Shown piece after piece: positions 8,083-30,910 of a DNA stretch of 45,892 nt. The stretch is taken from positions 1 through 45,892 of the IMG/VR virus record IMGVR_UViG_3300028394_001649. One strand, written 5' to 3'. The notes under the pieces are model-generated. The model searched no databases and was not told where the DNA came from. It saw only the letters and a list, made by a program, of their open reading frames with translations. The position numbers were made by a program, and so were the translations under genes. The DNA is from a virus. Numbering within the stretch: the stretch's first letter is position 1; every line of letters begins with the position of its first letter.

Positions 8083-8922
8083 ATGAAAAAAATGCAAGCA
8101 ATTGGTGCTCCATTTCAAATAGAATATTCATCAAATTCTAATTTATTGCCACAATCCTTCAGTTGGATCGCGGAAGACTTTCCTGTAAAAGTTTTTATAG
8201 ATGGTGGAATTGCCATCGGAATGTCTTATCAAAAGAAACCTGGAACACTGAAAATAGCATGGGTTTGCGAATCGCGTGCTATTTTTCATGCAATGAACTT
8301 TCCAAGAGAAGTTTGGGAAGAACAATTTTTAAATATTTGCGATTCATATGATCTTCTTTTTACTTCTGAGAAGAGTTGGTTGGGAAAGCATCCAAATGTA
8401 AGATATTGTCCAGCAGGAAGTAATCTTCCATGGATAAAGAACCAAGATATTTTTCCAAAAACAAAATTAGCATCTATGATTGCTTCTCCCAAGAAATTTG
8501 CATTTGGACATGCTATTCGTCATCAATTGGCAGAACAATATAAAAATAACCTTGATCTGTATGGTGGAGTTCTTGGATCTCGTAGATTAAGTCCAGGTGT
8601 TCCGTGGGGCGATAAGTCTGAAGGACTGAATGATTATATGTTTTCTATTACTGTGGAAAATGATAAGTACAGTACATATTATACAGAGAAAATAACTGAT
8701 TGTTTTGCTACGGGAACAATACCAGTATATTGGGGAGCACCAGATATTGGTGATATCTTCAACAAAGATGGAATTATAGAATTAACTCCAGATTTTGATC
8801 CAAAAACATTGACAAAAGAACTATATGAAAGTAAACTTGATGCAGTAAGAGACAACTTTAATCGGGTTAAAGAACTTGTTTCTGCTGATGATCAATTATT
8901 TAAATTAATCAATGAAAACTGA
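8083..8922 (+). CDS. Glycosyltransferase family 10-like (alpha-1,3-fucosyltransferase C-terminal domain)
   Basis: 279 residues from the ATG at 8083 (GGAG at 8069-8072; an upstream in-frame start at 8065 lacks a ribosome site). The block FSITVENDKYSTYYTEKITDCFATGTIPVYWGAPDIGDIF (about 193-232) follows the GT10 donor-site pattern: F-x-x-x-x-E-N ... Y-x-T-E-K-x-x-D ... G-x-I-P-V-Y-W-G-x-P. GT10 enzymes transfer fucose or related sugars from GDP-sugars. The GDP-mannose 3,5-epimerase homologue at 16726 could supply a GDP-hexose. No signal peptide or membrane segment, so it acts in the infected cell's cytoplasm. First gene of the glycan cluster. Confidence 0.82.
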   Translation: MKKMQAIGAPFQIEYSSNSNLLPQSFSWIAEDFPVKVFIDGGIAIGMSYQKKPGTLKIAWVCESRAIFHAMNFPREVWEEQFLNICDSYDLLFTSEKSWLGKHPNVRYCPAGSNLPWIKNQDIFPKTKLASMIASPKKFAFGHAIRHQLAEQYKNNLDLYGGVLGSRRLSPGVPWGDKSEGLNDYMFSITVENDKYSTYYTEKITDCFATGTIPVYWGAPDIGDIFNKDGIIELTPDFDPKTLTKELYESKLDAVRDNFNRVKELVSADDQLFKLINEN

Positions 8923-9580
8923 AATTGTATCCTTTTATTGTGATATAGATGATCGTACATACTATAGCGATCACGCGCGTCGTCTGAGAATCAATTGCAA
9001 TGAGAATAATATTCCACATGATATTCGCGAATTACCTTCGCGTGGTGAATACCGTTTAAATTGTCTTGCTAAACCAAGATTCATTCTTTCTGTGTTGGAA
9101 GAAAAGAAACGACCATTTGTGTGGATGGATGTTGATTCTTTGATTCATGCTGAACTTTCTATATTTGATACCCTGAAAGACAACTGCGATATGGCATTTG
9201 CATATCAAGGCAATCCTCCAGATGTGAATCCCAATTTACCCAAAGCATCACCAATTTATGTAAATTATACAGAAAAGACTATACAGTGTTTGACTTACTG
9301 GGTTGAACGATGCGAATTCAATGAAATGAATTTGGGTGTGAAATTTTTTGATCATGAAGTTCTGATGGGTGAAGTATTGCCAGAATTTTTATCCAAGATG
9401 CGAATTGGTATGCTTGGACATCCATATGCCATATGGCCTGGAACATCATTGCCAGAAGGATTCACGCCAATGATAACAATGGGAATTGCTGATGGAAAAT
9501 CCAAAGAAAATTCACTGAGAGAAATGGGACTTCGAGAAGAAATCGTAAAATTTAACTTAGTAGGTAATGCAAGTGAATAA
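8912..9580 (+). CDS. GT-A-type nucleotide-sugar glycosyltransferase-like protein with DxD motif
   Basis: 222 residues, overlapping the previous gene by 11 nt. The centre has a DxD-type metal/sugar-nucleotide motif in RPFVWMDVDSLIHAEL (about 69-84), then alternating hydrophobic strands and FDHEVLMGEVLPEF, typical of GT-A folds that move sugar from NDP-sugar donors. The DVDS motif and the context of about ten other glycosyltransferases support the call. The acceptor is unknown. A family number cannot be assigned from sequence alone. Confidence 0.7.
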   Translation: MKTEIVSFYCDIDDRTYYSDHARRLRINCNENNIPHDIRELPSRGEYRLNCLAKPRFILSVLEEKKRPFVWMDVDSLIHAELSIFDTLKDNCDMAFAYQGNPPDVNPNLPKASPIYVNYTEKTIQCLTYWVERCEFNEMNLGVKFFDHEVLMGEVLPEFLSKMRIGMLGHPYAIWPGTSLPEGFTPMITMGIADGKSKENSLREMGLREEIVKFNLVGNASE

Positions 9581-10307
9581 ACAAGTTTTATTTTGGCAAC
9601 CAGCTGGCATTGGTGATATATTCTTCTTACAGAAGGCAGCAAGACATTTTATATCTTCAGAATATGAAGTCATATGGCCTGTGATTCCAGAATTCCTATA
9701 CATCAAGGATTACATCAAGGGAATCAATTTTGTAAATGTAAATGAAGATTTTCCTCGTAAGGAATTATATAAGACACCAATTGCAATCAATACAGAAGAA
9801 TTCATTTATATTCCTTTTGATATTTCACATCATAGATTTGGTGTGCTACCGATGAAGGGCAAGTATCTGTTGATGCAATTCCTGGGATTTGATGTCAATG
9901 AAAATAATTGGAAAGATTATTTGCAATTTGAACGAAATCAAGAACGAGAGATTCGTTGTAAGGAAATCCTTGGTATAAAGAACGAACCATTTATTTTTGT
10001 GAATAATATGTTTGCTTCTCCACCTGATATGGTATACAGGGAAGTCAATATTACAAATTCAAATATAAAGTGTGTATACCATAAACCAGAACATATCAAA
10101 CTATTCAATGTATTTGATCTATGCTGGGTTATTGAGAATGCTGTAGAGATTCATACAGTTGAAACTTCACTTTGCTATCTTGTTGAAAAACTAAATACTA
10201 AAGGAAAACTGAACATGTATTCGCGAAAAGTGAATGACAGATTGCAGAATCCAGATTTTTCATATGTTGACCATATTTATAAAAAGGATTGGAATTATAT
10301 AATATGA
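9567..10307 (+). CDS. GT-B-like glycosyltransferase (heptosyltransferase/GT9-like)
   Basis: 246 residues. The N-terminus VLFWQPAGIGDIFFLQKAARHF (7-28) resembles the Gly-x-Gly-Asp-(I/L) nucleotide-sugar transferase start seen in GT9 heptosyltransferases. A later IENAVEIHTVETSLCYLVEKL (about 190-210) resembles the donor-site 'Thr-x-x-Ser' turn of the same fold. It starts inside the 3' end of the previous gene; GTG at 9573 is an alternative start with better spacing from TAGG (9561-9564). It ends overlapping the next start (ATGATG). The substrate is unknown. Confidence 0.6.
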   Translation: MQVNKQVLFWQPAGIGDIFFLQKAARHFISSEYEVIWPVIPEFLYIKDYIKGINFVNVNEDFPRKELYKTPIAINTEEFIYIPFDISHHRFGVLPMKGKYLLMQFLGFDVNENNWKDYLQFERNQEREIRCKEILGIKNEPFIFVNNMFASPPDMVYREVNITNSNIKCVYHKPEHIKLFNVFDLCWVIENAVEIHTVETSLCYLVEKLNTKGKLNMYSRKVNDRLQNPDFSYVDHIYKKDWNYII

Positions 10308-10684
10308 TGCTTGAAGTTTCTATTGGCGAGGCAATTGACAAATATACAATTCTTACAATCAAAGAAGAATGTATCAAAGACGAGAGAAAACTCGTAAATA
10401 TTAAAAAAGAAAGAATGGAAATTGAAAAATCCCTGATAGATCAGGGATACTTTTATTCATTCATCGAAGAGATGGCAGACTTGACTAAAGTAAATAAAAC
10501 TCTTTGGGATATAGAAGATCAGATACGAATTAAAGAAGCAAATAAACAGTTCGATCATGAGTTCATAGAACTTGCAAGATCTGTTTATATTACTAATGAT
10601 AAAAGATTTGAAATTAAAAATCAAATCAATCAAAAGTCAAATTCGAATCTCAAAGAAGAAAAGTCGTATGCCAAATACAATTGA
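10304..10684 (+). CDS. DUF6165-like protein
   Basis: 126 residues from the first ATG of ATGATG (10304/10307). The start MMLEVSIGEAIDKYTILTIKEECIKDERKL matches the pattern I know for DUF6165, a small helical family that commonly sits next to glycosyltransferase genes. No catalytic function is established for the family. The rest is charged and helical (coiled-coil-like, residues 20-100). The 3' end overlaps the next gene by 17 nt. A 20-bp near-perfect palindrome lies inside it at 10429-10448. Confidence 0.75.
   Translation: MMLEVSIGEAIDKYTILTIKEECIKDERKLVNIKKERMEIEKSLIDQGYFYSFIEEMADLTKVNKTLWDIEDQIRIKEANKQFDHEFIELARSVYITNDKRFEIKNQINQKSNSNLKEEKSYAKYN
10429..10448 (+). other. 20-bp palindrome with 2-nt centre
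   Basis: ATCCCTGAT, AG, ATCAGGGAT: 9-bp arms that are exact reverse complements. As RNA it would form an 8-bp stem with a 4-nt loop; as duplex DNA it could be a dimeric protein site. It lies inside coding sequence, so the role is open. Confidence 0.5.
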
Positions 10685-11378
10685 TATATCAGATATAACA
10701 TTTCTTGGAGTGGACGGTGTTGGTAATGATGCAACTATATTGCGTTCATTAAAATACAGCAAACAATTTTTTCCAAATGCTAAAGTTAAATTTTTAACTT
10801 CAGGAAATCATCATTCAATCGATCCTGATATTGAACATGTGCAAATACGAAATCTTGGATACGATGAATTTAGCAAATTCTGTTTAACTGAATTGTATCG
10901 GTATTTTGATACTAGTTATATGATATATTGTCATGGTGATGGGTTTGCCACAAATCCAAATGCATGGACTGGTGAATTTTTAAAATATGATTATCTAGGA
11001 GCACCTTGGCCAAGATCTAATCTAGAAAGAAGTTCAAATAGATGGGAATTGGTTAAAAAAGCGTACTACGAATCACAAAAAACTTATTTTGTTGGGAATG
11101 GTGGATTTTCATTTAGATCTAAAAAATTAATGGAATCTGTAAGTCAACTGTACAAAGATGAATATTATGGTATACCAGAAGATCTTGTCATAGCAATAAT
11201 CATGCGAAAACAACTGGAAAAACAAGGATTTAAATTTACAAGTGATATAGGAGTTGCTGGTAAGTTTTCATGTGAAGCACCCTTTGTAGATGGATACATA
11301 CTTTCATCGGATGAGAGTTTTGGATTCCATTGTGGTGGAACTCATCCCCACAAAGTGAAATTATTGGAGACTGTATGA
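10668..11378 (+). CDS. DUF5672-family glycosyltransferase-like protein (copy 1)
   Basis: 236 residues from the ATG at 10668 (AAGAAG just upstream). Blocks typical of DUF5672 are present: ITFLGVDGVGNDATILRSL near the start, YCHGDGFATNPNAWTGEFLKYDYLGAPWP (about 85-113) and a FVGNGGFSFRSKKLM segment (about 140-154). The family is a GT-A-like set of putative sugar transferases. It is a diverged paralogue of the gene at 14646-15365, which shares the same ordered blocks. ATGA overlap with the next gene. Confidence 0.78.
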   Translation: MPNTIDISDITFLGVDGVGNDATILRSLKYSKQFFPNAKVKFLTSGNHHSIDPDIEHVQIRNLGYDEFSKFCLTELYRYFDTSYMIYCHGDGFATNPNAWTGEFLKYDYLGAPWPRSNLERSSNRWELVKKAYYESQKTYFVGNGGFSFRSKKLMESVSQLYKDEYYGIPEDLVIAIIMRKQLEKQGFKFTSDIGVAGKFSCEAPFVDGYILSSDESFGFHCGGTHPHKVKLLETV

Positions 11379-12370: not shown

Positions 12371-12371
12371 T

Positions 12372-13007
12372 ATGGCACAAGGTGTACATAAAATTACAGA
12401 ACAGTTCGAGGAAAAGGTAGCAGAATATACTGGTGCGCCTTATGCTGTTGCTCTTGACAACATGAGTAACGCATTGTTTCTTGCTTTGTATTATGAGAAA
12501 GTTCAAGGACTTGAGATCACAATACCAGCAAGAACTTATATGTCAGTTCCCTGTGAAATTATTCATGCTGGTGCAAAAGTAAAATTTGAACCAGTCGAAG
12601 GAACCAAGATCAAAGGTGGGTATCAACTAAAACCAACAAAGGTTTGGGATTGCGCATTGCAATTCACAACAAACATGTATGTGCCAAATACACATATGTG
12701 TTTATCTTTCACTGGACCATATAAGCATCTTAAATTGGGCAAGGGTGGCATGATAATTACTGATGATGTGGATGCGTACAAGTGGTTCAAGAAAGCAAGA
12801 TTTAGTGGAAGAAATGAGTGTTCTTATCACGAAGATACATTTGATATGTTGGGGTGGAACTTCTATATGATGCCAGAGATTGCTGCCCGTGGTCTTCTTC
12901 TGATGACACAGTTTTATAATCTTGATGGCACTCCAAAACACAATCCAGATCTTGAATTACCATATCCAGATCTTTCAAAGCATCCAGTATATACAGATAG
13001 TAAATAA
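12372..13007 (+). CDS. Short DegT/DnrJ/EryC1-type aminotransferase-like protein
   Basis: 211 residues against about 370 for typical DegT enzymes. It has the start of the PLP-binding large domain: an N-terminal EYTGAPYAVALDNMSNALFLAL, ITIPARTYMSVPCEIIHAGA (matching the 'T-x-x-S/T ... G-x-x-x-F' pattern) and SFTGPYKHLKLGKGGMII (about 114-131), where Lys in PYKHL is the expected PLP lysine. The C-terminal small domain is missing and the Asp-rich segment before the lysine is reduced. It may be a minimal family member, a half-enzyme, or degenerate. Lies between the two copies of the epimerase repeat. Confidence 0.65.
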   Translation: MAQGVHKITEQFEEKVAEYTGAPYAVALDNMSNALFLALYYEKVQGLEITIPARTYMSVPCEIIHAGAKVKFEPVEGTKIKGGYQLKPTKVWDCALQFTTNMYVPNTHMCLSFTGPYKHLKLGKGGMIITDDVDAYKWFKKARFSGRNECSYHEDTFDMLGWNFYMMPEIAARGLLLMTQFYNLDGTPKHNPDLELPYPDLSKHPVYTDSK

Positions 13008-14061: not shown

Positions 14062-14063
14062 AA

Positions 14064-18781: not shown

Positions 18782-19614
18782 TATCGGTATTTGGATCTAG
18801 TGGATTTATTGGGTCTAGATTTGTTGATACATTCAAAGACAAATGTATCGCTATACCTAGAGAATGTAATACACCACAATCTAATACTGTTCTTTATTTA
18901 ATAAGCACAGTTGATAATTATAATGTATATACAGATCCATATTTGGATGTTAATACAAATCTCATAAAACTAATAAATGTTCTTGAACAGTGTAAAAACT
19001 TTTCAGAACCATTAACATTTAATTTTATCAGTTCTTGGTTTGTGTATGGAAAGACTAATGAATTTCCAGCAAAGGAAACTTCAATTTGCAATCCCAGAGG
19101 ATTTTATTCGATTACTAAATATGCAGCAGAAAGAATGGTTGAATCTTATTGTGAAACTTTTAACATCAACTATAAGATAATGCGATTGACCAATATAATT
19201 GGTCCTGGTGACAAAAAAGTATCCAATAAGAAGAATGCATTGCAATATATGTTCAATCAGTTGAAATCCAATGATCAGGTCAAATTGTATAATAATGGAG
19301 AAGTTATTAGAGATTATATGGGTGTTGATGATTGTTGTAATGCTATAATGACATGTATTGATAATGCAGATAATAAATCCATAACAAATATTTCCAATTC
19401 AGAACCAACAAAGATAAAAGATATAATCAATTATGCTAAAGTTAAGTTAAATTCTCAAAGTGAAATATTATCAATAGATACACCACAATTTCATAAAACT
19501 GTTCAAATTGAGAACATGTATCTTGACAATACCGCTCTTTGTATGCTAGGATATACACCAAAAAGCACTGTGTATCAGTGCGTAGATTCTATATTGAAAA
19601 TAAACAATGATTAA
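18778..19614 (+). CDS. NAD-dependent epimerase/dehydratase family protein (SDR)
   Basis: 278 residues. NAD site SVFGSSGFIGSRF (3-15; GxxGxxG), then FNFISSWFVYG (Ser region, about 80-90) and the active-site YSITKYAAERM (Tyr-x-x-x-Lys, about 109-113), followed by RLTNIIGPGD and a C-terminal substrate lobe. Likely a sugar-nucleotide reductase, epimerase or dehydratase; the short length and the pattern STVDNYNVYTDPY in place of the usual HLAA motif suggest a reductase-type variant. It could make the 4-keto reduction expected after an RfbH/E1-type step, but this is inference from adjacency. Confidence 0.82.
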   Translation: MISVFGSSGFIGSRFVDTFKDKCIAIPRECNTPQSNTVLYLISTVDNYNVYTDPYLDVNTNLIKLINVLEQCKNFSEPLTFNFISSWFVYGKTNEFPAKETSICNPRGFYSITKYAAERMVESYCETFNINYKIMRLTNIIGPGDKKVSNKKNALQYMFNQLKSNDQVKLYNNGEVIRDYMGVDDCCNAIMTCIDNADNKSITNISNSEPTKIKDIINYAKVKLNSQSEILSIDTPQFHKTVQIENMYLDNTALCMLGYTPKSTVYQCVDSILKINND

Positions 19615-20944
19615 TTTAAACACTGATAATCTTATTAAAGAAAAGTTATCAAAATTGATAACAGAGATTGTGATTTCATCTAAAAAAGAATGGATTCCAG
19701 GTATTGATTGGATTTCATATGCTGGATCTTTTATGGATGAAAACGAGTATATTGCTGCCGTCGAATGCCTATTGGATGGTTGGTTTGCTCTCGGTGAAAA
19801 TGGTATTAAATTTGAAAGACAATTTAAATTTCATATAGGGAAAAATTATGGGTTATTGACGAATAGTGGATCTAGTGCAAATTTATTGATGGTTTCTGCG
19901 CTTAAATCTAAAAATTTATACAATTTGCCAGTAGGATCAAAAATAATAACTCCATGTGCTGGATTTCCAACAACAGTAAATCCAATATTGCAAAATGGTT
20001 TTGTTCCTGTTTTTGTGGATATAGAAATTGAGACTCTTAATATTGATTTGGATCAATTTGAAAAGGCAGCAAAAGATGGAGCAAGTGCAGTAATTTTTGC
20101 ACATGTTTTAGGTAATCCTCCAAACATGGATCGTGTTATGGAGATCGTAGACAAATATAATCTTATTTTACTTGAAGATTGTTGTGATGCTCTTGGTAGT
20201 TCTTTTGATGGTAAACTTTTGGGATCGTTTGGTCAATTTGCATCATGTTCTTTTTACCCAGCACACCATATTACAATGGGAGAAGGTGGATTTGTTGGAT
20301 GTAGAACAGAAGAACAAGAAACAGTAATTAGAAGTATTCGTGATTGGGGTAGAGGTTGCTATTGCTCTGGTAAAGGTTCTGCTTGCCTGAAGAATGGAAT
20401 GTGTAAAAAGAGATTCAGCAATTGGTTGCCAGATATGCCAGATGTAATTTTTGATCACAAATATATTTACGATGAAATTGGTTATAATTTAAAACCACTA
20501 GATTTGCAAGCAGCTATTGGTCTAGTTCAGATTAAAAAAATACCTGAAATTATAAAAATAAGAAAGAATAATTTTAACAGATTATATTCTATATTTTCGA
20601 AATATGAAACAATATTTCATTTGCCCAAAGCAACTCAAAATTCAGATCCTTCATGGTTTGCATTTCCATTGACCGTGAGGGATGGTGTTCAGTTAAATAG
20701 ATCTGATTTTACTTTATATCTTGAAAATTGTAAAATACAGACTAGAAATTATTTTGGTGGTAATTTATTACTTCAACCAGCTTATCGTGGATTGTATAGT
20801 GGAAACGCAATGATAGATTTTCCAGTTGCAACAAAAATTACAAAAGATACTTTCTTTTTAGGTACAAGTCCAGTAATTTCAGATCAACAACTTGTCTACA
20901 TAGAAGAGAAAGTGAATGAATATTTTCAGTCAGTCAAGTTTTAA
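19607..20944 (+). CDS. RfbH/E1-type NDP-4-keto-6-deoxyhexose 3-dehydrase (DegT family, Fe-S)
   Basis: 445 residues, near the length of RfbH/DdhC/AscC (about 437). In the motif SFYPAHHITMGEGG (about 215-228) the usual DegT PLP-lysine is replaced by His, the hallmark of C3-dehydrases (E1) and ColD that do dehydration instead of transamination. Cys193, Cys251, Cys253 and Cys260 (ECYS spacing 57, 1 and 6) match the [2Fe-2S] cysteines known from Yersinia E1, with one residue difference in the last spacing. In hosts, E1 with a reductase (E3) makes 3,6-dideoxyhexoses such as abequose, paratose or tyvelose. No E3 gene is visible here; the host may supply it. A rare and specific gene for a phage. Confidence 0.88.
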   Translation: MINLNTDNLIKEKLSKLITEIVISSKKEWIPGIDWISYAGSFMDENEYIAAVECLLDGWFALGENGIKFERQFKFHIGKNYGLLTNSGSSANLLMVSALKSKNLYNLPVGSKIITPCAGFPTTVNPILQNGFVPVFVDIEIETLNIDLDQFEKAAKDGASAVIFAHVLGNPPNMDRVMEIVDKYNLILLEDCCDALGSSFDGKLLGSFGQFASCSFYPAHHITMGEGGFVGCRTEEQETVIRSIRDWGRGCYCSGKGSACLKNGMCKKRFSNWLPDMPDVIFDHKYIYDEIGYNLKPLDLQAAIGLVQIKKIPEIIKIRKNNFNRLYSIFSKYETIFHLPKATQNSDPSWFAFPLTVRDGVQLNRSDFTLYLENCKIQTRNYFGGNLLLQPAYRGLYSGNAMIDFPVATKITKDTFFLGTSPVISDQQLVYIEEKVNEYFQSVKF

Positions 20945-22198: not shown

Positions 22199-23974
22199 AT
22201 GGCATTTCCAATAAATCCAATTTCAGGAACCACACACGGCGTTAATAGTCGTGTGTGGTCATATAATGGCATCGCGTGGGATAGACTAGATCTAGGAACT
22301 AGCACAGGGGGTTCTGGTGGTATTAGTGGTCCTTATGTAATATCCATAAACGGATTCATTGGTGGGGTCACGCTCTCAGCGGGGTCTGGTATCACTCTAA
22401 GTGGTACTGGTGGAATTATAACAATTTCCACTACTGGTACTGCTGGTCAAGGAACAATATTCTATTATCAAGCTACTGGTCCAAGTTCTGGTATAACTAC
22501 TGGCGACAGGTGGATGGATTCCGATACAGGAATTGAATTTGTATACATCAACGATGGCAATTCTCCACAATGGGTTCAACCATTAAATGCTGGAACCGTG
22601 GGACCAGCAGGTGCAGCAGGAAATACTGGTAATACTGGAAATACTGGTATTCAAGGAAATACTGGTAATACTGGAAATACTGGTTCTCCAGGTATTCAAG
22701 GCAACACTGGTAATACTGGAAATACTGGTTCTCCAGGTATTCAAGGAAATACAGGTAATACTGGTGCTACAGGTATTCAAGGAAATACTGGTAATACTGG
22801 TTCTCCAGGTATTCAAGGAAATACAGGTAATACTGGTTCTCCAGGTATTCAAGGAAATACTGGTAATACAGGAAACAATGGAAACACAGGAAACACAGGT
22901 AATACTGGAAACACTGGTAATACTGGTAACAATGGAAACACAGGTGCTACTGGTTATGGATATACTGCTGCTGGTATTTCTGGTGGGTTCCTTTGGATAT
23001 CGCCAGTAGATGAATTTGGTATTCGTGGAGCATCATTCTCCATTGGATATGTTCAAGGTAATACAGGTAATACAGGAAACAATGGAAACACAGGTAATAC
23101 TGGAAACACTGGTAACAATGGAAACACAGGTGCTACTGGATCTGGTTATACTGGAATTGGTATATCTGGTGGATTCTTGTGGATATCACCAGTAAATAAT
23201 TCTGGTAAAGGTGCTTCTTTTAGTATAGGATATGTTCAAGGAAATACTGGTAATACAGGAAACAATGGAAACACAGGAAACACAGGTAATACTGGAAACA
23301 CTGGAAACACAGGTTCAACTGGTGCTACTGGTTATGGATATACTGCTGCTGGTATTTCTGGTGGGTTCCTTTGGATATCGCCAGTAGATGGATTTGGTAT
23401 TCGTGGAGCATCATTCTCTATAGGATATGTTCAAGGAAATACTGGTAATACAGGAAACACTGGTAATACAGGAAATACTGGAAATACAGGAAACACAGGT
23501 AATACAGGTGCTACTGGTAACACAGGTTCAACTGGTGCTACTGGTTATGGATATACTGCCGCTGGTCTTTCTGGTGGATTCTTGTGGATATCACCTATAG
23601 ATGGATTTGGTATTCGTGGAGCATCATTCTCTATAGGATATGTTCAAGGTAATACTGGTAATACAGGTGCTACTGGTCAAGCACCAATATTCTATTATCA
23701 AGCTACTGCTCCGACTTCTGGTATAACGACTGGCGACAGGTGGATGGATTCCGATACAGGAATTGAATTTGTATATATCTACGATGGTAACTCTCCACAA
23801 TGGGTACAACCATTAAATGCTGCATCTCAAGGTAGTCAATATCTCTACGAGTTGACTCCCGCTTCCGCTACTGCGACAGGAACAAAAGGAGACATTGTTT
23901 ACGACACAAACTACATCTATGTCTGCATAGCAACTGACACTTGGAAGCGGACAGCAATTTCTACTTGGGTGTGA
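22199..23974 (+). CDS. Collagen-like modular tail fibre/adhesin 1
   Basis: 591 residues. Residues 1-75 have an AFPINP start plus VWSYNGIAWDRLDL, a common virion-fibre N-terminal tag also seen at 24008 and 29441. GDRWMDSDTGIEFVYINDG (about 101-119) occurs twice, before and after the collagen region. Residues ~131-520 are Gly-x-Y repeats dominated by Gly-Asn-Thr, broken by four copies of a 35-residue module (SGGFLWISPV ... GASFSIGYVQG) at about 252, 314, 378 and 449. The C-terminal tip has a GDIVYD ... YVCIATDTWKR motif. By analogy with collagen-like phage fibres it would form a trimeric rod. A 10-bp hairpin lies in the first codons. Predicted virion protein, late gene. Confidence 0.88.
   Translation: MAFPINPISGTTHGVNSRVWSYNGIAWDRLDLGTSTGGSGGISGPYVISINGFIGGVTLSAGSGITLSGTGGIITISTTGTAGQGTIFYYQATGPSSGITTGDRWMDSDTGIEFVYINDGNSPQWVQPLNAGTVGPAGAAGNTGNTGNTGIQGNTGNTGNTGSPGIQGNTGNTGNTGSPGIQGNTGNTGATGIQGNTGNTGSPGIQGNTGNTGSPGIQGNTGNTGNNGNTGNTGNTGNTGNTGNNGNTGATGYGYTAAGISGGFLWISPVDEFGIRGASFSIGYVQGNTGNTGNNGNTGNTGNTGNNGNTGATGSGYTGIGISGGFLWISPVNNSGKGASFSIGYVQGNTGNTGNNGNTGNTGNTGNTGNTGSTGATGYGYTAAGISGGFLWISPVDGFGIRGASFSIGYVQGNTGNTGNTGNTGNTGNTGNTGNTGATGNTGSTGATGYGYTAAGLSGGFLWISPIDGFGIRGASFSIGYVQGNTGNTGATGQAPIFYYQATAPTSGITTGDRWMDSDTGIEFVYIYDGNSPQWVQPLNAASQGSQYLYELTPASATATGTKGDIVYDTNYIYVCIATDTWKRTAISTWV
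22229..22259 (+). other. 10-bp inverted repeat just after the fibre-1 start
   Basis: ACCACACACG (22229-22238), 11-nt loop, CGTGTGTGGT (22250-22259), perfect arms, beginning 30 nt after the ATG. GC-rich for this AT-rich region. It could modulate translation of the late mRNA; effect unknown. Confidence 0.6.
22592..22951 (+). repeat. Collagen-like Gly-Asn-Thr repeat block, fibre 1
   Basis: Coding repeat made of 9-bp Gly-Asn-Thr units mixed with Gly-Ser-Pro and Gly-Ile-Gln triplets. Codons alternate (aat/aac, act/aca, ggt/gga), so the DNA repeat is imperfect while the protein repeat is nearly perfect. Shorter blocks follow between the interspersed modules up to ~23680. Confidence 0.9.
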
Positions 23975-24007: not shown

Positions 24008-25156
24008 ATGCCATTAGATTTCCCTCCATCCCCAGCACCGAATTATATTTATACCTTTGGCACTTCTTCTTGGAAGTGGACTGGTGATTCGTGGACAGTT
24101 TATTCTACTCCACTTTTGGGTAACACTGGTGCTACTGGCAACACAGGTGCTACTGGTCCAGTTGGTGATTATGTAATTACATTCAATGGAAGAACTGGTA
24201 ACATTCAAGGTGTGACATCAATCAATGGTGCTACAGGTACTATAATAAATGTGGCATTTACAAATCTAGGAAATACCTTTACTGTCAGACAGGTAATGAA
24301 TGCTGGTCTTACGACTTCTTCTATAAATGTTGCTGGTGTAGCATCATTCAATCCATCAAACAGCGGACAGAATACTTTAGGCGGAACAAGTACCACTCTT
24401 GCATCAACTGCCACGACAGTTCAGAATACAGCAGCACTGCTGACTATTTCAACCACTTTCTTACCAGGAAACAATGCTACGCTCAGACTACAGGGATCTG
24501 ATGGAAGTGGTGAAACTTCATATACTAATGATATTAAACCCCAGACTACACAGACTGGAAATTTAACACATACTCTGCCAGCGACTACAGGAACATTACT
24601 GAATGATAAATTACAGTATGTTGCTTCAATAAATGGAAGAACGGGTGACATTCAAGGTGTGACATCAATCAATGGTGCTACAGGTACTATAATAAATGTG
24701 GCATTTACAAATCTTGGAAATACCTTTAGTGTTTGTCAAGTATTCAATGCTGGCATAACCGCCTCTGGTGGAATGACATTATTTGGATCATTAAATTCTT
24801 ATAGTGGAATTTCTGCTTCTGGCATCACATCAGATTCTGGGTATAAAATAACAGCTGGTGCAATCAATGCCCAAACAGTAAGTTATACTATGCTAGGATC
24901 AGACAACGGCAAAATCATAACCATGAATCCTGCTTCTACAGGAATCACACTTACTGTTCCTACTGGATTGCCCATCGGTCACACAACAACAATTATTCGT
25001 CTTAGCTCTACTCTAAATGTTGGAATAAGTGCCGCTAGTGGTGTGACAATCAATAGTTTCCAGAATCAGAAAAATATTGCTGGTCAACATGCTGCTGTAA
25101 GTTTGATTTCTTATACCACCGATACATTCAATCTTGCAGGAGGACTGACAGGATGA
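24008..25156 (+). CDS. Fibre/virion structural protein with short collagen-like stretch
   Basis: 382 residues. N-terminal tag PLDFPPSPAPNYIYTFGTSSWKWTGDSW is close to that at 29441. Residues ~37-54 carry short GNTGATG collagen-like repeats, followed by a NGRTGNIQGVTSINGATGTI block that recurs (near 57 and 206) as part of a ~106-bp internal DNA repeat. The rest is Ser/Thr/Gly-rich beta sequence with SGI ... SGY patterns typical of phage fibre shafts. ATGA overlap with the next gene. No enzyme motif; a fibre subunit or fibre tip is inferred. Confidence 0.8.
   Translation: MPLDFPPSPAPNYIYTFGTSSWKWTGDSWTVYSTPLLGNTGATGNTGATGPVGDYVITFNGRTGNIQGVTSINGATGTIINVAFTNLGNTFTVRQVMNAGLTTSSINVAGVASFNPSNSGQNTLGGTSTTLASTATTVQNTAALLTISTTFLPGNNATLRLQGSDGSGETSYTNDIKPQTTQTGNLTHTLPATTGTLLNDKLQYVASINGRTGDIQGVTSINGATGTIINVAFTNLGNTFSVCQVFNAGITASGGMTLFGSLNSYSGISASGITSDSGYKITAGAINAQTVSYTMLGSDNGKIITMNPASTGITLTVPTGLPIGHTTTIIRLSSTLNVGISAASGVTINSFQNQKNIAGQHAAVSLISYTTDTFNLAGGLTG
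24185..24290 (+). repeat. ~106-bp internal direct repeat, copy 1 (second copy ~24632-24737)
   Basis: The stretch beginning AATGGAAGAAC and ending near AATACCTTTA is nearly identical to 24632-24737, offset 447 bp, in frame. Differences include aactggtaac versus acgggtgac and ctag versus cttg. Confidence 0.85.
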
Positions 25157-25668
25157 TACTTCCTAATTGTCGTCCTGCATATTTAACACCAATACAGATC
25201 AAAGGATCCAATACTCCAGCAGCAGTGAATTGGACCAATATAAGATTTACCGCGTCTTCGGGAACACATCAATTCACAGAACAGCAAATAACAGGAATTT
25301 CAACTCCTATAGTTTTAAGTGTGAATGGAGCATGGGGATCCAATAGTACATTATATTATCGTGTTGCTCCAACTACAACGCCATTGCCAAACCCTTTACT
25401 CAATAAAGATGTATTTGTAGGAGTAACAGCATTTGATTACGCTGTAGGATTTGGATCATCCTCACAAGGATTCACTGCATGTCTTCCATTCAATAGTACT
25501 GGAAGCACTTTTGCAGTGAATAATAATGATTTTGTTGCATTTATATGCTGGGGTGCTGATCAGGCGCCTGGTCCATCAGTTATATTCCCAACATGGACAG
25601 TTACAGTCAATAACGAATCTGCTGGTGCAGCTACTTTGGATACTTTTGACGCAATAACAAATCCATAA
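25153..25668 (+). CDS. Hypothetical virion-associated protein
   Basis: 171 residues. Beta-rich: TPIQIKGSNTPAAVNWTNIRFTASSGTHQFTEQQITG with later FVAFICWGADQAPGPSVIFPTWTVTVNN. No family recognised, but composition and placement between fibre genes suggest a structural protein. Overlaps the previous gene by 4 nt. The stop codon overlaps a CATAAATA element. Confidence 0.6.
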   Translation: MILPNCRPAYLTPIQIKGSNTPAAVNWTNIRFTASSGTHQFTEQQITGISTPIVLSVNGAWGSNSTLYYRVAPTTTPLPNPLLNKDVFVGVTAFDYAVGFGSSSQGFTACLPFNSTGSTFAVNNNDFVAFICWGADQAPGPSVIFPTWTVTVNNESAGAATLDTFDAITNP

Positions 25669-25686: not shown

Positions 25687-26118
25687 ATGCCAGCATCACG
25701 GTACGATATTCAAGCAGATCAGGGAGCAACATTCAAGTTGCATTTGCATTATAAATTTTCTGGTGGAACTGGAATTGATATTGGAAACTTTACAGGAAGA
25801 ATGCAAGTCCGAAGATCCTCAAAAGATCCAAATGTTATTTTATTCTTAACTCAAAATGGTGTTACTGGTGGTGGTATTACTGGAGAATTTGCTATTGGTA
25901 GTGGAATTGCTGGTAGTGGTGGAATTAGTTTCAATACTTCTATTTCTGGAGCAACAGCATTTACTGGTGGAATATTTCTAAGAGTTGATGCTGATACTAT
26001 GACTAATGTTCCAAATGGAAAGCATTTTTATGATCTTGAATTAAAGAATTCGCTCAATGAAGTGATGAGACTTATGGAAGGTTCATTTGAAGTCTCAAGA
26101 GAAATTACGAGAACATAA
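25687..26118 (+). CDS. Hypothetical virion protein (BppU-like N-terminal pattern)
   Basis: 143 residues. SRYDIQADQGATFKLHLHYKFSGGTGIDIGNFTGRMQVRRS (4-44) has the pattern of baseplate upper-protein/fibre-holder N-terminal domains: Asp-x-Gly-x-x-F ... hydrophobic strands ... G-x-x-x-R-M-Q-V-R. C-terminal LRVDADTMTNVPNGKHFYDLELKNSLNEVMRLMEG resembles the strand pair 'v..G..yYDLel' of the same type. Four nt before the large collagen-like gene. The role as baseplate/fibre connector is inferred. Confidence 0.6.
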   Translation: MPASRYDIQADQGATFKLHLHYKFSGGTGIDIGNFTGRMQVRRSSKDPNVILFLTQNGVTGGGITGEFAIGSGIAGSGGISFNTSISGATAFTGGIFLRVDADTMTNVPNGKHFYDLELKNSLNEVMRLMEGSFEVSREITRT

Positions 26119-26121: not shown

Positions 26122-29091
26122 ATGGCAGAAGAGAAACCAATACTGGTAGTAACTCAAATTCCTCCGAACACAATTGTTACGGAGAGTTCTGCTAATAACT
26201 TAGTAGTCAATAACACATTACCATCCACAGTATTGATTGCTGCTGCATTGGGGCCAGCAATTGCTGGTGGTGCTGGTGCTCAAGGTATAAGAGGAACTAC
26301 AGGTGCTACTGGTGCTACTGGTTCTGGTTATACTGCAATTGGTCTTTCTGGTGGGTTTCTTTGGGTTTCTCCTGTAAGTAATACTGGAGTTCGTGGAGCA
26401 TCATTTTCCATTGGATATGTTTTAGGATCAACTGGTAACACTGGAAATACTGGTATTCAAGGTAACACTGGTAACACTGGTAATACTGGTTCTCCAGGTA
26501 TTCAAGGAAATACAGGTAACACTGGTAACACTGGAAATACTGGTTCTCCAGGTATTCAAGGTAACACTGGTAATACTGGAAACACTGGTTCTGATGGTTC
26601 TCCAGGTATTCAAGGAAATACAGGTAATACTGGTTCTCCAGGTATTCAAGGTAACACTGGTAATACTGGAAACACTGGTGCTCCAGGTATTCAAGGTAAC
26701 ACTGGTAATACTGGTTCTCCAGGTATTCAAGGAAATACAGGTAATACTGGAAACACTGGTTCTCCAGGTATTCAAGGAAATACAGGTAATACTGGTTCTC
26801 CAGGTATTCAAGGTAACACTGGTAATACTGGTAATACTGGTTCTCCAGGTATTCAAGGAAATACAGGTAATACTGGTTCTCCAGGTATTCAAGGAAATAC
26901 AGGTAATACAGGTAATACTGGAAACACTGGTGCTCCAGGTATTCAAGGAAATACAGGTAATACTGGTTCTCCAGGTATTCAAGGAAATACAGGTAACACT
27001 GGTAATACAGGTATTCAAGGAAATACAGGTAACACTGGTAATACAGGTAATACTGGTTCTCAAGGTCCATCTGGTGGTGTTAATTTTGCTTTTGGTGCAA
27101 CTGCTCCTTCCAACCCAACTGGTGGAGATCAATGGTTAGATAGCAATACTGGAGCATTGCTCACTTATTTTTATGACGGAAATTCTTCTCAATGGGTTCA
27201 ATTCCTTAAAGGAATTCCTGGTCCTCAAGGAGCAACTGGTCCGAGCGGAGTAGTCTCTGGTGATTATGTTGCTTTGTTCAATGGAAAAACTGGAAATGTT
27301 GGTATTTCTGCTGGATCGTTCATAACAATCACTCAAACAGGAAACACATTTACAATATCTTCTAGTGTAGGAACTGTTGCAGGTTCTACAGGAAATACTG
27401 GTGCTACTGGTTCTCCAGGTATTCAAGGTAACACTGGTAACACTGGTAATACAGGTATTCAAGGTAACACTGGTAACACTGGTAATACAGGTATTCAAGG
27501 TAACACTGGAAATACTGGTAACACTGGAAATACAGGTATTCAAGGTAACACTGGTAATACTGGTAACACTGGAAATACAGGTATTCAAGGTAACACTGGT
27601 AACACTGGTAACACTGGTATTCAAGGTAACACTGGTAACACTGGAAATACAGGTATTCAAGGTAATACTGGAAATACTGGAGCATGTGGTCCAACCGATA
27701 TACGATCAACAAATTCAGCATCCACATTCTATCCATTATTTGCTGGAGGTTCTGGAAATACTTACATTTATATTGATGATGTCACTACACCATTTACATA
27801 TGTCCCAAGTAGTGGTGCATTAACAGCAAAGATATTCGCCATAGCAACTGGAGTTAATTCATCCTCATTGAACGCAACCTATGTTGAATTTAATACTAGT
27901 ACAGACTCATCAAGTGTTTCTGCTACCAATATTGGTAATGTTGGATCATCACCATTTACAGTTCAATCAAATGTTAAATTAAAATTAACTGCTCCAACTA
28001 TAGAATTTTATGGATCTGGTTGGGGATATACATTCCCTGCATCAAATGGAACTACTGGTCAAGCATTACTGACAAGAGGTGATGCTGGACTTTATTGGGG
28101 AACGGTTTCTACATCTGGTGGTAGTGGAACAACTCTATTTGCTGGAAGAGGAATTACTCTAACTACAGCATCCGCAGGAACTACAGTTGCTACTATTCTA
28201 GGAATGACCAGTGCGAATGATGGATTCTTGATTTCTGGTGGTATAACCCAAAGAACTCTTGGATTTAGTGGTGGTGATGTGACAATTGAAGGTGGAACAT
28301 TTGCATCAGTAATAACATTCCCAACTGTATCTACAACACTTGTTGGAATTCACAATGCAGTAACTTCGTTCAATGGATCAACTGGTGATATTACATTCGC
28401 TGGTGGTGTTACTGGAGTGAATGGTAAAACTGGAAATGCTTTTGTGTTTGAATATTATCTAGGGTTTACTTCCACCGTAAACACTTCAACATATCCAGAA
28501 GGTGGAACTGCTAATTATGCGTCAAATCAACCAGTATATTACAGTTCCTCACCATTTAATGATATAATATCATCGGGTAGAGCAAAACCAAATAGAGTTT
28601 ATTTTAATCCATTTGTAATTCCAACCCAAACAACAATACAAATATTGCGACTTAGTGGATATCAAAACGGATTATGTGGTGGAACTGGAAATGTATTTTT
28701 AGGAATATATAATGCAAATTCTTATGGTATGCCAAAAGACAAACTATATTCGTCCAGCAGTCTAGTAGTATTAAGTGATTTTGCCAATACTCATGATTAT
28801 AATCCTTCTGGATTGATTACTCTATCTCCTGGATATTATTATCTTGCAGCAGTATTTAATAATAATCCTACACTATATTCGTTTACTACTGGAGCGCAAA
28901 CCAGTACAAGTCCATTTGGATCTCAAAATCTTGCTGGTGGATATCAGAACCGAGCTATTATTATAGATCAGGGTGGATTTACCTTACCGATAAGTGGAAT
29001 CACTAGTGGTGCTAGATTTGTTGATTATAGCGTTGGTGGAACATATACAAATCTTATGGTAAGTCCACTAATAGAATTTAGGATTCTATAA
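26122..29091 (+). CDS. Large collagen-like modular tail fibre/adhesin 2
   Basis: 989 residues. A short N-terminal domain (about 1-60), one copy of the FLWVSPV...SIGYVLG module (about 68-102), then two collagen-like blocks (about 103-319 and 421-523) with Gly-Asn-Thr plus Gly-Ser-Pro/Gly-Ile-Gln triplets. GGDQWLDSNTGALLTYFYDGNSSQWVQFL sits between them. A block with TFYPLFAGG ... DDVTTPFTYVPSSG and FYGSGWGYTFPASNG (about 532-645) is shared with the fibre at 35545. The last ~200 residues form a distinct, non-repetitive tip (YSSSPFNDIISSGR ... YGMPKDKLYS), the best candidate for receptor binding. Likely trimeric virion fibre. Confidence 0.88.
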   Translation: MAEEKPILVVTQIPPNTIVTESSANNLVVNNTLPSTVLIAAALGPAIAGGAGAQGIRGTTGATGATGSGYTAIGLSGGFLWVSPVSNTGVRGASFSIGYVLGSTGNTGNTGIQGNTGNTGNTGSPGIQGNTGNTGNTGNTGSPGIQGNTGNTGNTGSDGSPGIQGNTGNTGSPGIQGNTGNTGNTGAPGIQGNTGNTGSPGIQGNTGNTGNTGSPGIQGNTGNTGSPGIQGNTGNTGNTGSPGIQGNTGNTGSPGIQGNTGNTGNTGNTGAPGIQGNTGNTGSPGIQGNTGNTGNTGIQGNTGNTGNTGNTGSQGPSGGVNFAFGATAPSNPTGGDQWLDSNTGALLTYFYDGNSSQWVQFLKGIPGPQGATGPSGVVSGDYVALFNGKTGNVGISAGSFITITQTGNTFTISSSVGTVAGSTGNTGATGSPGIQGNTGNTGNTGIQGNTGNTGNTGIQGNTGNTGNTGNTGIQGNTGNTGNTGNTGIQGNTGNTGNTGIQGNTGNTGNTGIQGNTGNTGACGPTDIRSTNSASTFYPLFAGGSGNTYIYIDDVTTPFTYVPSSGALTAKIFAIATGVNSSSLNATYVEFNTSTDSSSVSATNIGNVGSSPFTVQSNVKLKLTAPTIEFYGSGWGYTFPASNGTTGQALLTRGDAGLYWGTVSTSGGSGTTLFAGRGITLTTASAGTTVATILGMTSANDGFLISGGITQRTLGFSGGDVTIEGGTFASVITFPTVSTTLVGIHNAVTSFNGSTGDITFAGGVTGVNGKTGNAFVFEYYLGFTSTVNTSTYPEGGTANYASNQPVYYSSSPFNDIISSGRAKPNRVYFNPFVIPTQTTIQILRLSGYQNGLCGGTGNVFLGIYNANSYGMPKDKLYSSSSLVVLSDFANTHDYNPSGLITLSPGYYYLAAVFNNNPTLYSFTTGAQTSTSPFGSQNLAGGYQNRAIIIDQGGFTLPISGITSGARFVDYSVGGTYTNLMVSPLIEFRIL
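26428..27069 (+). repeat. Collagen-like repeat block A of fibre 2
   Basis: Long array of 36-45-bp units encoding (Gly-Ser-Pro-Gly-Ile-Gln) plus 2-4 (Gly-Asn-Thr) triplets. Units are near-identical, with synonymous codon variation. All unit lengths are multiples of 9 bp, so unit gain or loss keeps the frame. Confidence 0.9.
27382..27690 (+). repeat. Collagen-like repeat block B of fibre 2
   Basis: Second array, mostly (Gly-Asn-Thr) runs with Gly-Ile-Gln breaks, ending at GACGP (a Cys near 524, where the triple helix would stop). Confidence 0.88.
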
Positions 29092-29426
29092 TGAAAGTAT
29101 TCAAACAATACAGTTTCAACGAACTCACACAAGAATCAACTTTAATAGATGATAGAGATTTTTATCATTGTAAACAATTTCAATTAAAAGAGCTAAGAAA
29201 TATTGCTAACAAACTGATTATCTCTAGTGTTCCAGAATATAAGCAAAGAAACGCAGCACTTGGATTGCTGTCTGATGAAGAAACACAACAGATTAAAGAT
29301 TCAATACAAGCAATAAGAACAATATCAAATCAAAAAGAAGCAGAGATACTCGCAGTTGTTTGGGATGGACAAGAATCCACAAGAGCAGAAGCGTGTGATA
29401 TAGTTCAGAGGATATTCTGGGAATAA
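29091..29426 (+). CDS. Small hypothetical protein of the fibre block (possible fibre-assembly factor)
   Basis: 111 residues, start overlapping the previous stop. The N-terminal half has short strands (KQYSFNELTQESTLIDDRD); the middle YKQRNAALGLLSDEETQQIKDSIQAIRTISNQKEAEI is helical. The 'kqRNaaLg' block is reminiscent of small fibre-associated proteins such as the DUF4376 type or fibre-assembly chaperones that follow fibre genes. This is position and pattern only. A chaperone role for collagen-like trimer assembly is possible. Confidence 0.5.
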   Translation: MKVFKQYSFNELTQESTLIDDRDFYHCKQFQLKELRNIANKLIISSVPEYKQRNAALGLLSDEETQQIKDSIQAIRTISNQKEAEILAVVWDGQESTRAEACDIVQRIFWE

Positions 29427-29429
29427 ATA
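29422..29429 (+). promoter_or_regulatory. Late-promoter-like element AATAAATA
   Basis: One mismatch from TATAAATA, overlapping the stop of the preceding gene and 11 nt before the ATG at 29441. Low certainty. Confidence 0.3.
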
Positions 29430-29440
29430 ATTAAACTACC

Positions 29441-30910
29441 ATGCCACTAGATTTTCCTTCAAATCCAACCCTCAATTTACCATACACTTTCAACGGAACT
29501 CAATGGAAGTGGAATGGTTCTGCTTGGTTGATTGTTGGTGATAATTTTGGTACTACAGGAGCAACAGGACCAGCTGGAAATACTGGAAACACTGGTAATA
29601 ATGGAACAACAGGTAACACTGGTGCTACGGGATCTGGTTATACTGCTGCTGGTCTTTCTGGTGGATTCTTATGGATAACTCCAGTTTTATCTTCTGGTAT
29701 ACTTGGAGCATCATTCTCCATTGGATATGTTATTGGTTCAACTGGAGCAACTGGAAGAACGGGAACAACGGGAAATACAGGAGCAACAGGATCTGGGTAT
29801 ACTGCTATTGGTATTTCTGGTGGATTTCTTTGGATATCACCAGTAGACAGTAGTGGAATCCAAGGTGCTTCATTCTCTGTGGGTAGAGTTCAAGGAACAA
29901 CTGGATCTACTGGTCCTACTGGATCTACAGGTGCTACAGGTAATAATGGAACAACAGGTAACACTGGTGCTACGGGATCTGGTTATACTGCCGCTGGTCT
30001 TTCTGGTGGATTCTTATGGATATCTCCAGTATTGAATGATGGAACTAGAGGTGCATCATTCTCTATAGGATATATTTTAGGAACAACAGGTAATACTGGA
30101 AACACTGGTAATAATGGAACAACAGGTAACACTGGTGCTACGGGATCTGGTTATACTGCTGCTGGTCTTTCTGGTGGATTCTTATGGATAACTCCAGTTT
30201 TATCTTCTGGTATACTTGGAGCATCATTCTCCATTGGATATGTTATTGGTTCAACTGGAGCAACTGGAAGAACTGGTACTACTGGATCTACAGGTGCTAC
30301 GGGATCTGGTTATACGGCTATTGGTATTTCTGGTGGATTTCTTTGGATATCACCAGTAGATAATTTTGGTATTCGCGGAGCATCATTCTCTATAGGATAT
30401 GTTCAAGGAAATACTGGAAACACTGGTAATACAGGTAATAATGGAAGTACAGGTAATACTGGAAACACTGGTAATACAGGTAATAATGGAAGTACAGGTA
30501 ATACTGGAAACACTGGTAACAATGGAAATACTGGCAACACTGGTGCTACAGGATCTGGATATACTGCTATAGGATTATCTGGTGGATTCTTGTGGATATC
30601 ACCAGTAGATGGATTTGGTATTCGTGGAGCATCATTCTCCATTGGATATGTTCAAGGTAATACAGGTAATACAGGAAATGACGGAACACCTGGAACAATT
30701 AGTGGTTCATATGTTCAGACCATAAATGGATTTACGGGTGGTGTTACATTGGCACAAGGAACCAATGTTACAATAAATTCTGTTGGAAATATAATAACAA
30801 TCAACTCATCTGGAGCTGGGGGTGGAGTAGATGGAGTTTCTACATATGATGGTAGAACTGGTAATATTTTCACACCACCATTAATTTTATACGCATTAGG
30901 AATAATTTAA
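29441..30910 (+). CDS. Collagen-like modular tail fibre/adhesin 3
   Basis: 489 residues. N-terminal tag PLDFPSNPTLNLPYTFNGTQWKWNGSAW is shared with 24008. Six copies of the ~35-residue module (SGGFLWI ... GASFSIGY) alternate with short collagen-like linkers (Gly-Asn-Thr, Gly-Ala-Thr, Gly-Ser-Thr). A perfect 182-bp direct repeat covers one module plus linker. It ends without a large tip domain: SYVQTINGFTGGVTL ... YDGRTGNIF. The short end suggests a shaft-type protein needing a separate tip, possibly the proteins encoded at 30921 and 31355. Confidence 0.87.
   Translation: MPLDFPSNPTLNLPYTFNGTQWKWNGSAWLIVGDNFGTTGATGPAGNTGNTGNNGTTGNTGATGSGYTAAGLSGGFLWITPVLSSGILGASFSIGYVIGSTGATGRTGTTGNTGATGSGYTAIGISGGFLWISPVDSSGIQGASFSVGRVQGTTGSTGPTGSTGATGNNGTTGNTGATGSGYTAAGLSGGFLWISPVLNDGTRGASFSIGYILGTTGNTGNTGNNGTTGNTGATGSGYTAAGLSGGFLWITPVLSSGILGASFSIGYVIGSTGATGRTGTTGSTGATGSGYTAIGISGGFLWISPVDNFGIRGASFSIGYVQGNTGNTGNTGNNGSTGNTGNTGNTGNNGSTGNTGNTGNNGNTGNTGATGSGYTAIGLSGGFLWISPVDGFGIRGASFSIGYVQGNTGNTGNDGTPGTISGSYVQTINGFTGGVTLAQGTNVTINSVGNIITINSSGAGGGVDGVSTYDGRTGNIFTPPLILYALGII
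29579..29760 (+). repeat. 182-bp perfect direct repeat, copy 1
   Basis: Identical base for base to 30092-30273 (offset 513 bp). The flanking bases on both sides differ. It encodes one full module plus part of the collagen linker, in frame. Confidence 0.93.
30092..30273 (+). repeat. 182-bp perfect direct repeat, copy 2
   Basis: Second copy of the 29579-29760 element. No mismatch was found across the 182 bases. Confidence 0.93.

Follow-up and report, generated by a model that had tools for sequence, protein, structure and literature searches.

When a phage carries a long run of sugar genes directly ahead of the genes for its collagen-like tail fibres, are the fibres glycosylated, and which of these genes would do it? 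The question is raised by a stretch of 45,892 nucleotides (45.9 kb, hereafter the window) that makes up IMG/VR virus record IMGVR_UViG_3300028394_001649 and is, by gene order and family knowledge, a fragment of a T4-like phage. The initial annotation had proposed that the whole sugar cluster serves to glycosylate fibres dominated by Gly-Asn-Thr (GNT) triplets. Our analysis singles out one gene, the last before the fibres (20956-22170), which encodes a family 2 glycosyltransferase (GT2) with a tetratricopeptide repeat (TPR)-like part and is called GT2-TPR below. We consider it probable that GT2-TPR is the threonine O-glycosyltransferase of the phage's own collagen-like fibres, an activity that we infer. 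That a phage transferase acts on Thr of its own fibres, as first suggested, is supported by the co-occurrence of GT2-TPR with Thr-rich collagens across many phages.

The putative acceptors lie close to the enzyme gene. The first fibre gene starts 28 bases past the GT2-TPR stop codon, and its product passes the Pfam Collagen family PF01391 (108 bits against a cut-off of 27.2; E 1.9e-31). Three collagen-like fibre genes do follow, as described, with other open reading frames (ORFs) between them rather than as a consecutive run. Thr occupies 183 of the 260 Y positions of the Gly-X-Y triplets over four fibre ORFs and 12 of the 260 X positions. Y is thus mostly Thr, and the 70% falls short of the "almost always" of the initial annotation. 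Counted in L002, a contig of the same species, GNT does dominate fibres 1 and 2 (45/71 and 65/117 counted triplets) and does not dominate fibre 3 (20/58). Tandem Repeats Finder detected tandem repeats beneath the collagen parts. All three fibres also carry a non-collagen insert of about 40-50 aa (GFLW.SPV...GASFS.G.V), present in several copies in the first and third. Further along, an 87-bp tandem repeat with 4.2 copies and 98% matches (36226-36587) lies inside the fibre gene 35545-37734.

The sequence and predicted fold of GT2-TPR point to a protein glycosyltransferase. The gene product passes the GT2 family PF00535 (54.3 bits against a cut-off of 23.3), and predicted structure and fold comparison give its C-terminus as a helical-repeat, TPR-like region, so that the last gene was correctly described from the start. 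The AlphaFold2 (AF2) model, with a predicted local distance difference test (pLDDT) score of 90.8, shows the GT-A domain plus C-terminal helical fold of the SunS family. Foldseek placed SunS (E 1.8e-16) and ThuS (1.2e-14) well ahead of the best other family (4.5e-7). VIA-align agreed, with a Z of 23.4 for SunS (7msp) over 266 residues at 2.6 A, 21.8 for ThuS and 16.9 for the next family. Divergent 353-aa relatives in other phages were modelled as well, with a pLDDT of 92.3 and the same top fold matches. At the level of sequence, the four distinct matches in the PDB were GmaR, SunS (two) and 7msk, which is ThuS; the cut-off of the SunS-family equivalog TIGR04195 was not reached (47.3 bits against 350). 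A DTGS-D-T motif, a DxD motif and an HE pair are invariant both in alignment A1 (49 rows) and in alignment A2 (17 rows). Overall, 128 relatives were found among the viral-contig candidates, the best 80 of which were kept, and many of the phage enzymes beside collagens have 350-370 aa with the same glycosyltransferase (GT) plus TPR layout. GT2-TPR thus looks like a protein glycosyltransferase, since its solved relatives act on protein or peptide, and its designation as the protein-binding member of the cluster is supported by SunS and ThuS as the nearest solved folds. The likeness of fold alone leaves its acceptor undecided.

The same comparison bears on another idea, that the transferases modify the bases of the phage DNA, as the excerpt of PMC9614988 notes for the glucosylated DNA of T-even phages. 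Here the nearest folds are peptide transferases, and the phage has a DNA methylase instead (38731-40068). PF00303, the thymidylate synthase family in which we place dCMP hydroxymethylase, was found in 0 of 18 records, mostly fragments, and DNA glycosylation was rejected on this ground; we regard it as extremely unlikely.

We quantified the association between GT2-TPR and the Thr content of neighbouring collagens. Viral contigs were gathered by degenerate DNA patterns for Thr-rich (GNT, GPT and GAT) and Thr-poor (GPQ and G[DE]K) repeats; the resulting loci are a sample of the collection, among the matches listed. Loci past the listed rows were assigned to a repeat by their number. The motif frame was checked for each locus, loci without an in-frame motif were dropped, and loci sharing 90% identity over 30% of the shorter one were treated as a single locus. 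The forward tests rest on 565 viral pattern-scan loci, with 9 of the window's own species dropped. In the counts at 3 kb and by repeat, six groups stand on both sides; in the other forward counts, groups of both kinds were taken as Thr-rich. Two profiles were used: A1, whose members were picked only by likeness to the window's enzyme, and a wider profile, which includes the A2 sequences picked beside Thr-rich collagens and is biased in that direction. With A1, GT2-TPR appeared in 42 of the 289 non-redundant loci with Thr-rich repeats and in 2 of the 211 with Thr-poor ones (Fisher p 8e-9). With the wider profile, the enzyme was present at 15/64 GNT, 23/117 GPT and 12/109 GAT loci against 3/119 GPQ and 1/115 G[DE]K loci. 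Within 3 kb the wider profile gave 37/271 Thr-rich against 3/234 Thr-poor loci, and within 300 bp, 16/271 against 0/234; stratified by GC content, its association had a p of 5.6e-6. The association also held when the commonest lineage was removed (31/257 against 2/203, p 1.5e-6), in an analysis of the 280 and 206 loci, from the 289 and 211, in which one or more non-collagen genes of 100 aa occur. Ten gene families reach 12 loci or more; of these, GT2-TPR stood at 38 Thr-rich to 1 Thr-poor, and the most frequent other family at 58 to 25. One family was more skewed, at 15 to 0, and it marks the lineage that was removed. Any GT2 at all (PF00535 above its cut-off) was found in 18 of 35 Thr-rich and 8 of 35 Thr-poor longer records (two-sided p 0.025).

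The association was then read in the opposite direction, from the enzyme to the collagen. Thr-rich was defined as a run of at least 5 triplets with Thr in at least 40% of Y, and Thr-poor as less than 15% over at least 8 triplets. The query consisted of the divergent, collagen-selected GT2-TPRs of A2, which could steer the sample to such lineages. The search yielded 80 loci in 56 groups, of which 40 had a Thr-rich collagen within 5 kb and none a Thr-poor one. The 46 groups untouched by any collagen scan divided into 31 with a Thr-rich collagen within 5 kb, 0 with a Thr-poor one and 15 with none; of the 12 whose contig extends for 5 kb in both directions, 10 had a Thr-rich collagen. Excluding only the A2 seed groups left 33 of 49 Thr-rich.

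Individual phages show how tight the pairing can be. At six loci (L158, L166, L174, L195, L208 and L845), the GT2-TPR frame begins 5-23 bases after the last codon of a GNT fibre, and L845 encodes a Phage_capsid_3 capsid protein, so that the direct pair also occurs in a phage of another capsid family. In the T4-like L196, two tandem GT2-TPR genes stand right behind regA, and the region 6624-13628 encodes a fibre, 2335 aa or longer, that has 656 Gly-X-Y triplets and Thr in 91% of Y. A tree of 96 enzyme representatives comprises 67 with Thr-rich collagen, 5 with Thr-poor only and 24 with none within 3 kb; the tree, in part collagen-selected, did not serve as a test.

Several observations weigh against GT2-TPR as a dedicated fibre enzyme. 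Adjacency is only mildly above that of a random gene (16 loci at 300 bp, 9.6 expected, p 0.014), so the argument rests on co-occurrence, and confounding by lineage and habitat was only partly removed. Both bear on the alternative of hitch-hiking, in which host-range cassettes carry fibres and GTs from phage to phage together, and Thr-rich collagens and GT2-TPR just happen to be frequent in the same lineages. The modest adjacency fits this account, as do the still stronger skew of the lineage-marking family and the single lineage that gives 12 of the 45 GT2-TPR loci. Against it, the signal survives both removal of that lineage and GC stratification, the most frequent other family of the same loci stands at only 58 to 25, and the 45 loci, sorted by shared genes, form 16 or 26 groups of which a single one is without Thr-rich collagen in this collagen-selected sample. 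We consider hitch-hiking improbable.

The remaining difficulties concern enzymes that lack a suitable collagen. In bacteria, where a (GNT)3 scan matched proteins from many kinds of bacteria and 67 of the 80 listed loci were in frame, GT2-TPR was found at only 1 of the 67. Within the window's own group, 59 non-redundant loci comprise 31 Thr-rich, 23 Thr-poor (14 with both kinds, 9 Thr-poor only) and 19 with neither, in flanks that are cut. Two contigs (G021 and G022) have no fibres at the regA-GT2-TPR-dUTPase position; the 77 kb of G022 contain no collagen, and the 146 kb of G012 no Thr-rich run longer than 5 triplets. Eight phage records around a GT2-TPR relative were read. A flanking collagen, with Thr at 0.37-0.70 of Y, is present in three: Actinomycetia phage DSL-LC01, whose two Thr-rich collagens (Thr 0.70 and 0.64 of Y) lie about 3 kb from the enzyme gene, Tunturiibacter phage Tunturi_5, whose 1469-aa fibre with 95 triplets (Thr 0.61) is encoded 3.7 kb away on the opposite strand, and a faecal clone. 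The other five, PaBG, Lu11, Yoloswag, HRDY3 and Sen-NF, have none in the flanks. Because of these five, the acceptor may be wider than collagen: either other virion proteins are acceptors as well, or the family is broader and collagen is only one of its uses. In the same five (L934, L935, L937, L939 and L940), the relative lies near a DNA ligase gene in a seemingly structural region, a setting that hints at virion glycosylation without collagen. Separately, a near-constant Thr-poor collagen-like protein of 55-59 triplets (GPQ, GEK, GKD and similar) lies near GT2-TPR in many T4-like relatives (L019, L041, L044, L045, L047, L067, L069, L071, L072, L074 and others); its fixed length suggests a structural ruler.

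Persistence of the family in phages without nearby collagen also fits the proposal that GT2-TPR acts on a host surface protein or polysaccharide, altering receptors and blocking superinfection, and shares a host-recognition region with the fibres. GmaR, which we take to be a flagellin glycosyltransferase and hence an enzyme with a protein acceptor, is among the nearest solved relatives; it is the best PDB sequence match over the GT2 part, with only about 98 residues matched and another acceptor. A known genomic counterpart is the host recognition cluster of pelagimyophages and cyanomyophages, where the excerpt of PMC7029224 reads the GTs, which stand in an island with tail fibres, as enzymes that modify the host O-chain. 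That cluster resembles ours in belonging to T4-like phages, in being hypervariable, in combining GTs with tail fibres and in the triple collagen repeats noted in the excerpt; it differs in place, between VrlC and gp14 there and between regA and dUTPase/gp43 here. A host target gives no reason to expect that Thr-rich collagens would be preferred to Thr-poor ones, and we find this proposal unlikely.

Does the sugar island itself take part? Sugar, transferase and methyltransferase genes do precede the fibres, numbering 16 non-overlapping ORFs (in G001) or 18 forward ORFs of at least 100 aa from regA to the last transferase rather than about 20. Pfam and NCBIfam confirmed the enzyme kinds listed in the initial annotation (E1-type dehydrase, DegT, epimerases, methyltransferases and transferases): GT10, DUF6165, two DUF5672, three NAD-dependent epimerase/dehydratases, two DegT-type proteins, two Methyltransf_24 and GT17, with an RfbH-type enzyme, presumably a CDP-4-keto-6-deoxyglucose 3-dehydrase, as the last gene. 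Several island ORFs had no family match in Pfam or NCBIfam, and 9 of the 10 cluster proteins tried had none in PHROGs. The island contains a 262-bp direct repeat of 89% identity (12109-12370 and 13800-14061), the copies of which bracket the short DegT gene and the ORF 13007-13753; the end of the epimerase 11330-12370 is encoded a second time at 13750-14061. The repeat is likely the trace of a cassette insertion. The short DegT-type protein (12372-13007, 211 aa) has its best matched stretch at positions 26-93 of a 360-position profile and is still 86% identical in the cassette of contig G020.

We compared the island among 17 contigs that hold both regA and GT2-TPR, 3 of them belonging to the species of the window. 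The two genes lie 7.1-22.4 kb apart in 13 contigs and 18-42 bp apart in the other 4 (G021, G022, G024 and G030), which have no adjacent island at GT2-TPR. In G021 and G022 the order is regA, GT2-TPR, dUTPase with gaps of 10-22 bp, and dUTPase is the next gene after GT2-TPR in 9 of 80 loci (the best 80 of 128 relatives). In three more contigs (G023, G025 and G031) the island is present and only 0.6-0.7 kb separates GT2-TPR from dUTPase; G025, without fibres beside GT2-TPR, has a 121-triplet collagen elsewhere with Thr in 46% of Y. The place of GT2-TPR is thus fixed, with sugar genes inserted before it and fibres after it.

G020 (L043) was an informative contig. From the first DUF5672 on, eight of its island proteins keep the order of the window, with 69-86% identity to their counterparts there; for the first four the identity is 39-47%, and two of these are in swapped order. 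By comparison, its replication proteins are 42-65% and its GT2-TPR 56% identical. Because the island proteins are far more alike than the replication proteins, transfer of the cassette between distant phages is most likely. Among the genes of the window, the third epimerase, the RfbH-type enzyme and the two methyltransferases had no match in G020 at the cut-off used. Behind the G020 cassette stands a long collagen of 56 triplets with Thr in only 2% of Y, and Thr-rich runs in its 153,850 bases are limited to two, of 5 and 8 triplets, elsewhere in the contig. The initial annotation had named related phages that keep the sugar cluster without Thr-rich collagen-like fibres as evidence that would count against it; G020 comes close to this, the two short runs remaining.

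The 41-43 kb records behind L167 and L845, which come from other phages and may be fragments, have GT2-TPR beside GNT fibres and no epimerase-family gene, and the L167 record has a single GT2. A private sugar pathway therefore seems unneeded, as far as these contigs reach. Epimerase genes do occur elsewhere in the contig in G024 and in G051, the record of L196, and the epimerase family was present in 7 of 11 records tried. No more than 18 loci came from a control scan based on DegT, and several of them belong to the species of the window. These results bear on the claim that the whole cluster is a dedicated pathway that builds a decorated deoxysugar and transfers it to the GNT fibres. Its RfbH, epimerase and methyltransferase content and its adjacency to the fibres speak for that claim. 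So do two haplotypes of the species, the window and G002 (GT2-TPR 99.5% identical), since both keep GNT fibres and a related, if partly different, island. A pathway of this kind is at odds with much of the cassette standing beside a Thr-poor collagen in G020, with GT2-TPR lacking an adjacent island in 4 of 17 contigs and with GT2-TPR/GNT pairs in contigs without an epimerase-family gene, and we think it very unlikely. That the island tracks Thr-rich fibres was rejected on G020 and the contigs without an adjacent island. The island looks like a separately exchanged, hypervariable cassette, its link to the fibres is not supported, and its use is most likely at the host surface or in an optional extension of glycans.

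How, then, could GT2-TPR work on its own? The GT-A (GT2) catalytic domain and the TPR-like helical arm would together form a protein O-glycosyltransferase that transfers a sugar from a nucleotide-sugar donor to Thr, perhaps also Ser, of the fibres encoded next, chiefly to the Y Thr of Gly-X-Thr. The donor could come from a host pool such as UDP-GlcNAc or, less surely, from the neighbouring island. The TPR arm would grip the chain while it is still extended, ahead of triple-helix closure. No prolyl-hydroxylase-type gene was found for the fibre, which the glycans may stabilise or shield. The 2OG-Fe(II) oxygenase family PF13640 was present in 0 of 19 relative records, on which the prolyl hydroxylase route was rejected. 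It was present in 2 of 14 control genomes, both bacterial, so the earlier statement that hydroxyproline cannot be made in bacteria was too strong.

Such an enzyme would be a phage variant of a known bacterial collagen O-glycosylation and not a new chemistry. According to the excerpt of PMC7157674, SgtA, of the SgtA/BclA3 pair of Clostridioides difficile spores, has 358 aa, a GT and four TPR, its gene is immediately upstream of bclA3, and in vitro it adds beta-O-GlcNAc to Thr of BclA3 collagen-repeat peptides and also to Ser variants. Compared by layout and description, the two systems share a GT with C-terminal TPR adjoining a Thr-rich collagen-like gene; they differ in that the proposed acceptor here is a phage tail fibre with GNT instead of GPT triplets. 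The peptide S-glycosyltransferases SunS and ThuS (SPbeta yolJ), whose family is marked by S-linkage to Cys of a bacteriocin precursor, resemble GT2-TPR as the nearest solved folds, of phage or prophage origin and with a polypeptide acceptor, and differ in that GT2-TPR lies far below their family cut-off and adjoins fibres, not a bacteriocin gene. A viral enzyme that glycosylates viral collagen is reported from mimivirus, whose bifunctional L230 places glucose on hydroxylysine of a collagen-like protein by another chemistry, not confirmed in the virion in the excerpt of PMC9614988. In a mycobacteriophage, GTs are likewise proposed to act on a virion protein, here the capsid protein, and the excerpt of PMC11256854 suggests virion glycosylation with no mention of collagen. 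We found no description of the GT2-TPR/Thr-rich fibre pairing in the open-access literature.

The coordinates of the features are collected in Table 1. Membership of the T4-like phages follows from the order gp47-46-45-44-62-regA in the replication region, and the gp46 product matches 3826 phage records, the best being Synechococcus phages at about 45% identity. We assigned the replication gene names from T4-type gene order and family knowledge; regA is presumably correct by that order, and dUTPase is our assumption from sequence. To the right of the fibres lie dUTPase, the DNA methylase, a MazG-like gene, gp43 in two parts, uvsX and the start of gp41. The same phage is represented by G001 (117,772 bases), among several near-identical contigs. 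The gp43 gene is split into ORFs 40375-41856 and 43436-44587, separated by a SpoU-like gene, tRNA-Gln, tRNA-Leu and small ORFs; the split recurs in G001, G002, G010, G011 and G014, and G020 has a single 857-aa ORF. The DNA methylase (N6_N4_Mtase) belongs to the replication region and has relatives in several contigs.

Table 1. Features of the window discussed in the text, in order of position.
Feature	Position	Strand	Remarks
uvsW end, gp55, gp47, gp46, gp45, gp44, gp62, regA	3-8055		left of sugar island
regA	7660..8055	+	island's left border; syntenic in relatives
Sugar island	8065-20944	+	between regA and GT2-TPR
RfbH-type dehydrase (E1)	19607..20944	+	island's last gene; NCBIfam NF011936, 477.2 bits vs cut-off 423
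GT2-TPR glycosyltransferase, 404 aa	20956..22170	+	proposed fibre Thr O-glycosyltransferase; place fixed in group
Fibre genes	22199-37734		between GT2-TPR and dUTPase
Collagen-like fibre 1, 591 aa, GNT-rich	22199..23974	+	Pfam Collagen; Thr 56/75 Y
Fibre-like protein, short collagen stretch (6 triplets)	24008..25156	+	
Unannotated protein in fibre module	25153..25668	+	no PHROG match
Adaptor-like protein, conserved in fibre module	25687..26118	+	PHROG 1084, 3304 'L-shaped tail fiber protein assembly'; relatives adjoin GT2-TPR
Collagen-like fibre 2, 989 aa, GNT-rich	26122..29091	+	PHROG tail fiber matches; Thr 75/121 Y
Small protein	29091..29426	+	relatives in G001, G002, G003, G017, G020
Collagen-like fibre 3, 489 aa, Thr-rich	29441..30910	+	PHROG tail fiber matches; Thr 48/58 Y
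dUTPase	38216..38734	+	fibre module's right border; syntenic in relatives

Collagen-like repeats are common in phage fibres, and how they are stable without hydroxyproline is an open question; phage glycosyltransferases are usually classed as modifying DNA or the host surface. The pairing of GT2-TPR with Thr-rich collagen predicts O-glycans on phage fibres, which bears on host range and on the recognition of phages, and it singles out one gene of a 20-kb region as the first candidate. The enzyme may also serve as a tool for collagen glycosylation. More tentatively, the system could be widespread among T4-like and other tailed phages: a dedicated GT2-TPR would glycosylate the Y Thr of the fibres for hydroxyproline-free stabilisation and cloaking, selection would keep fibre Thr content and enzyme together, and in some phages, including that of the window, the swappable island may extend the first sugar into a strain-specific glycan.

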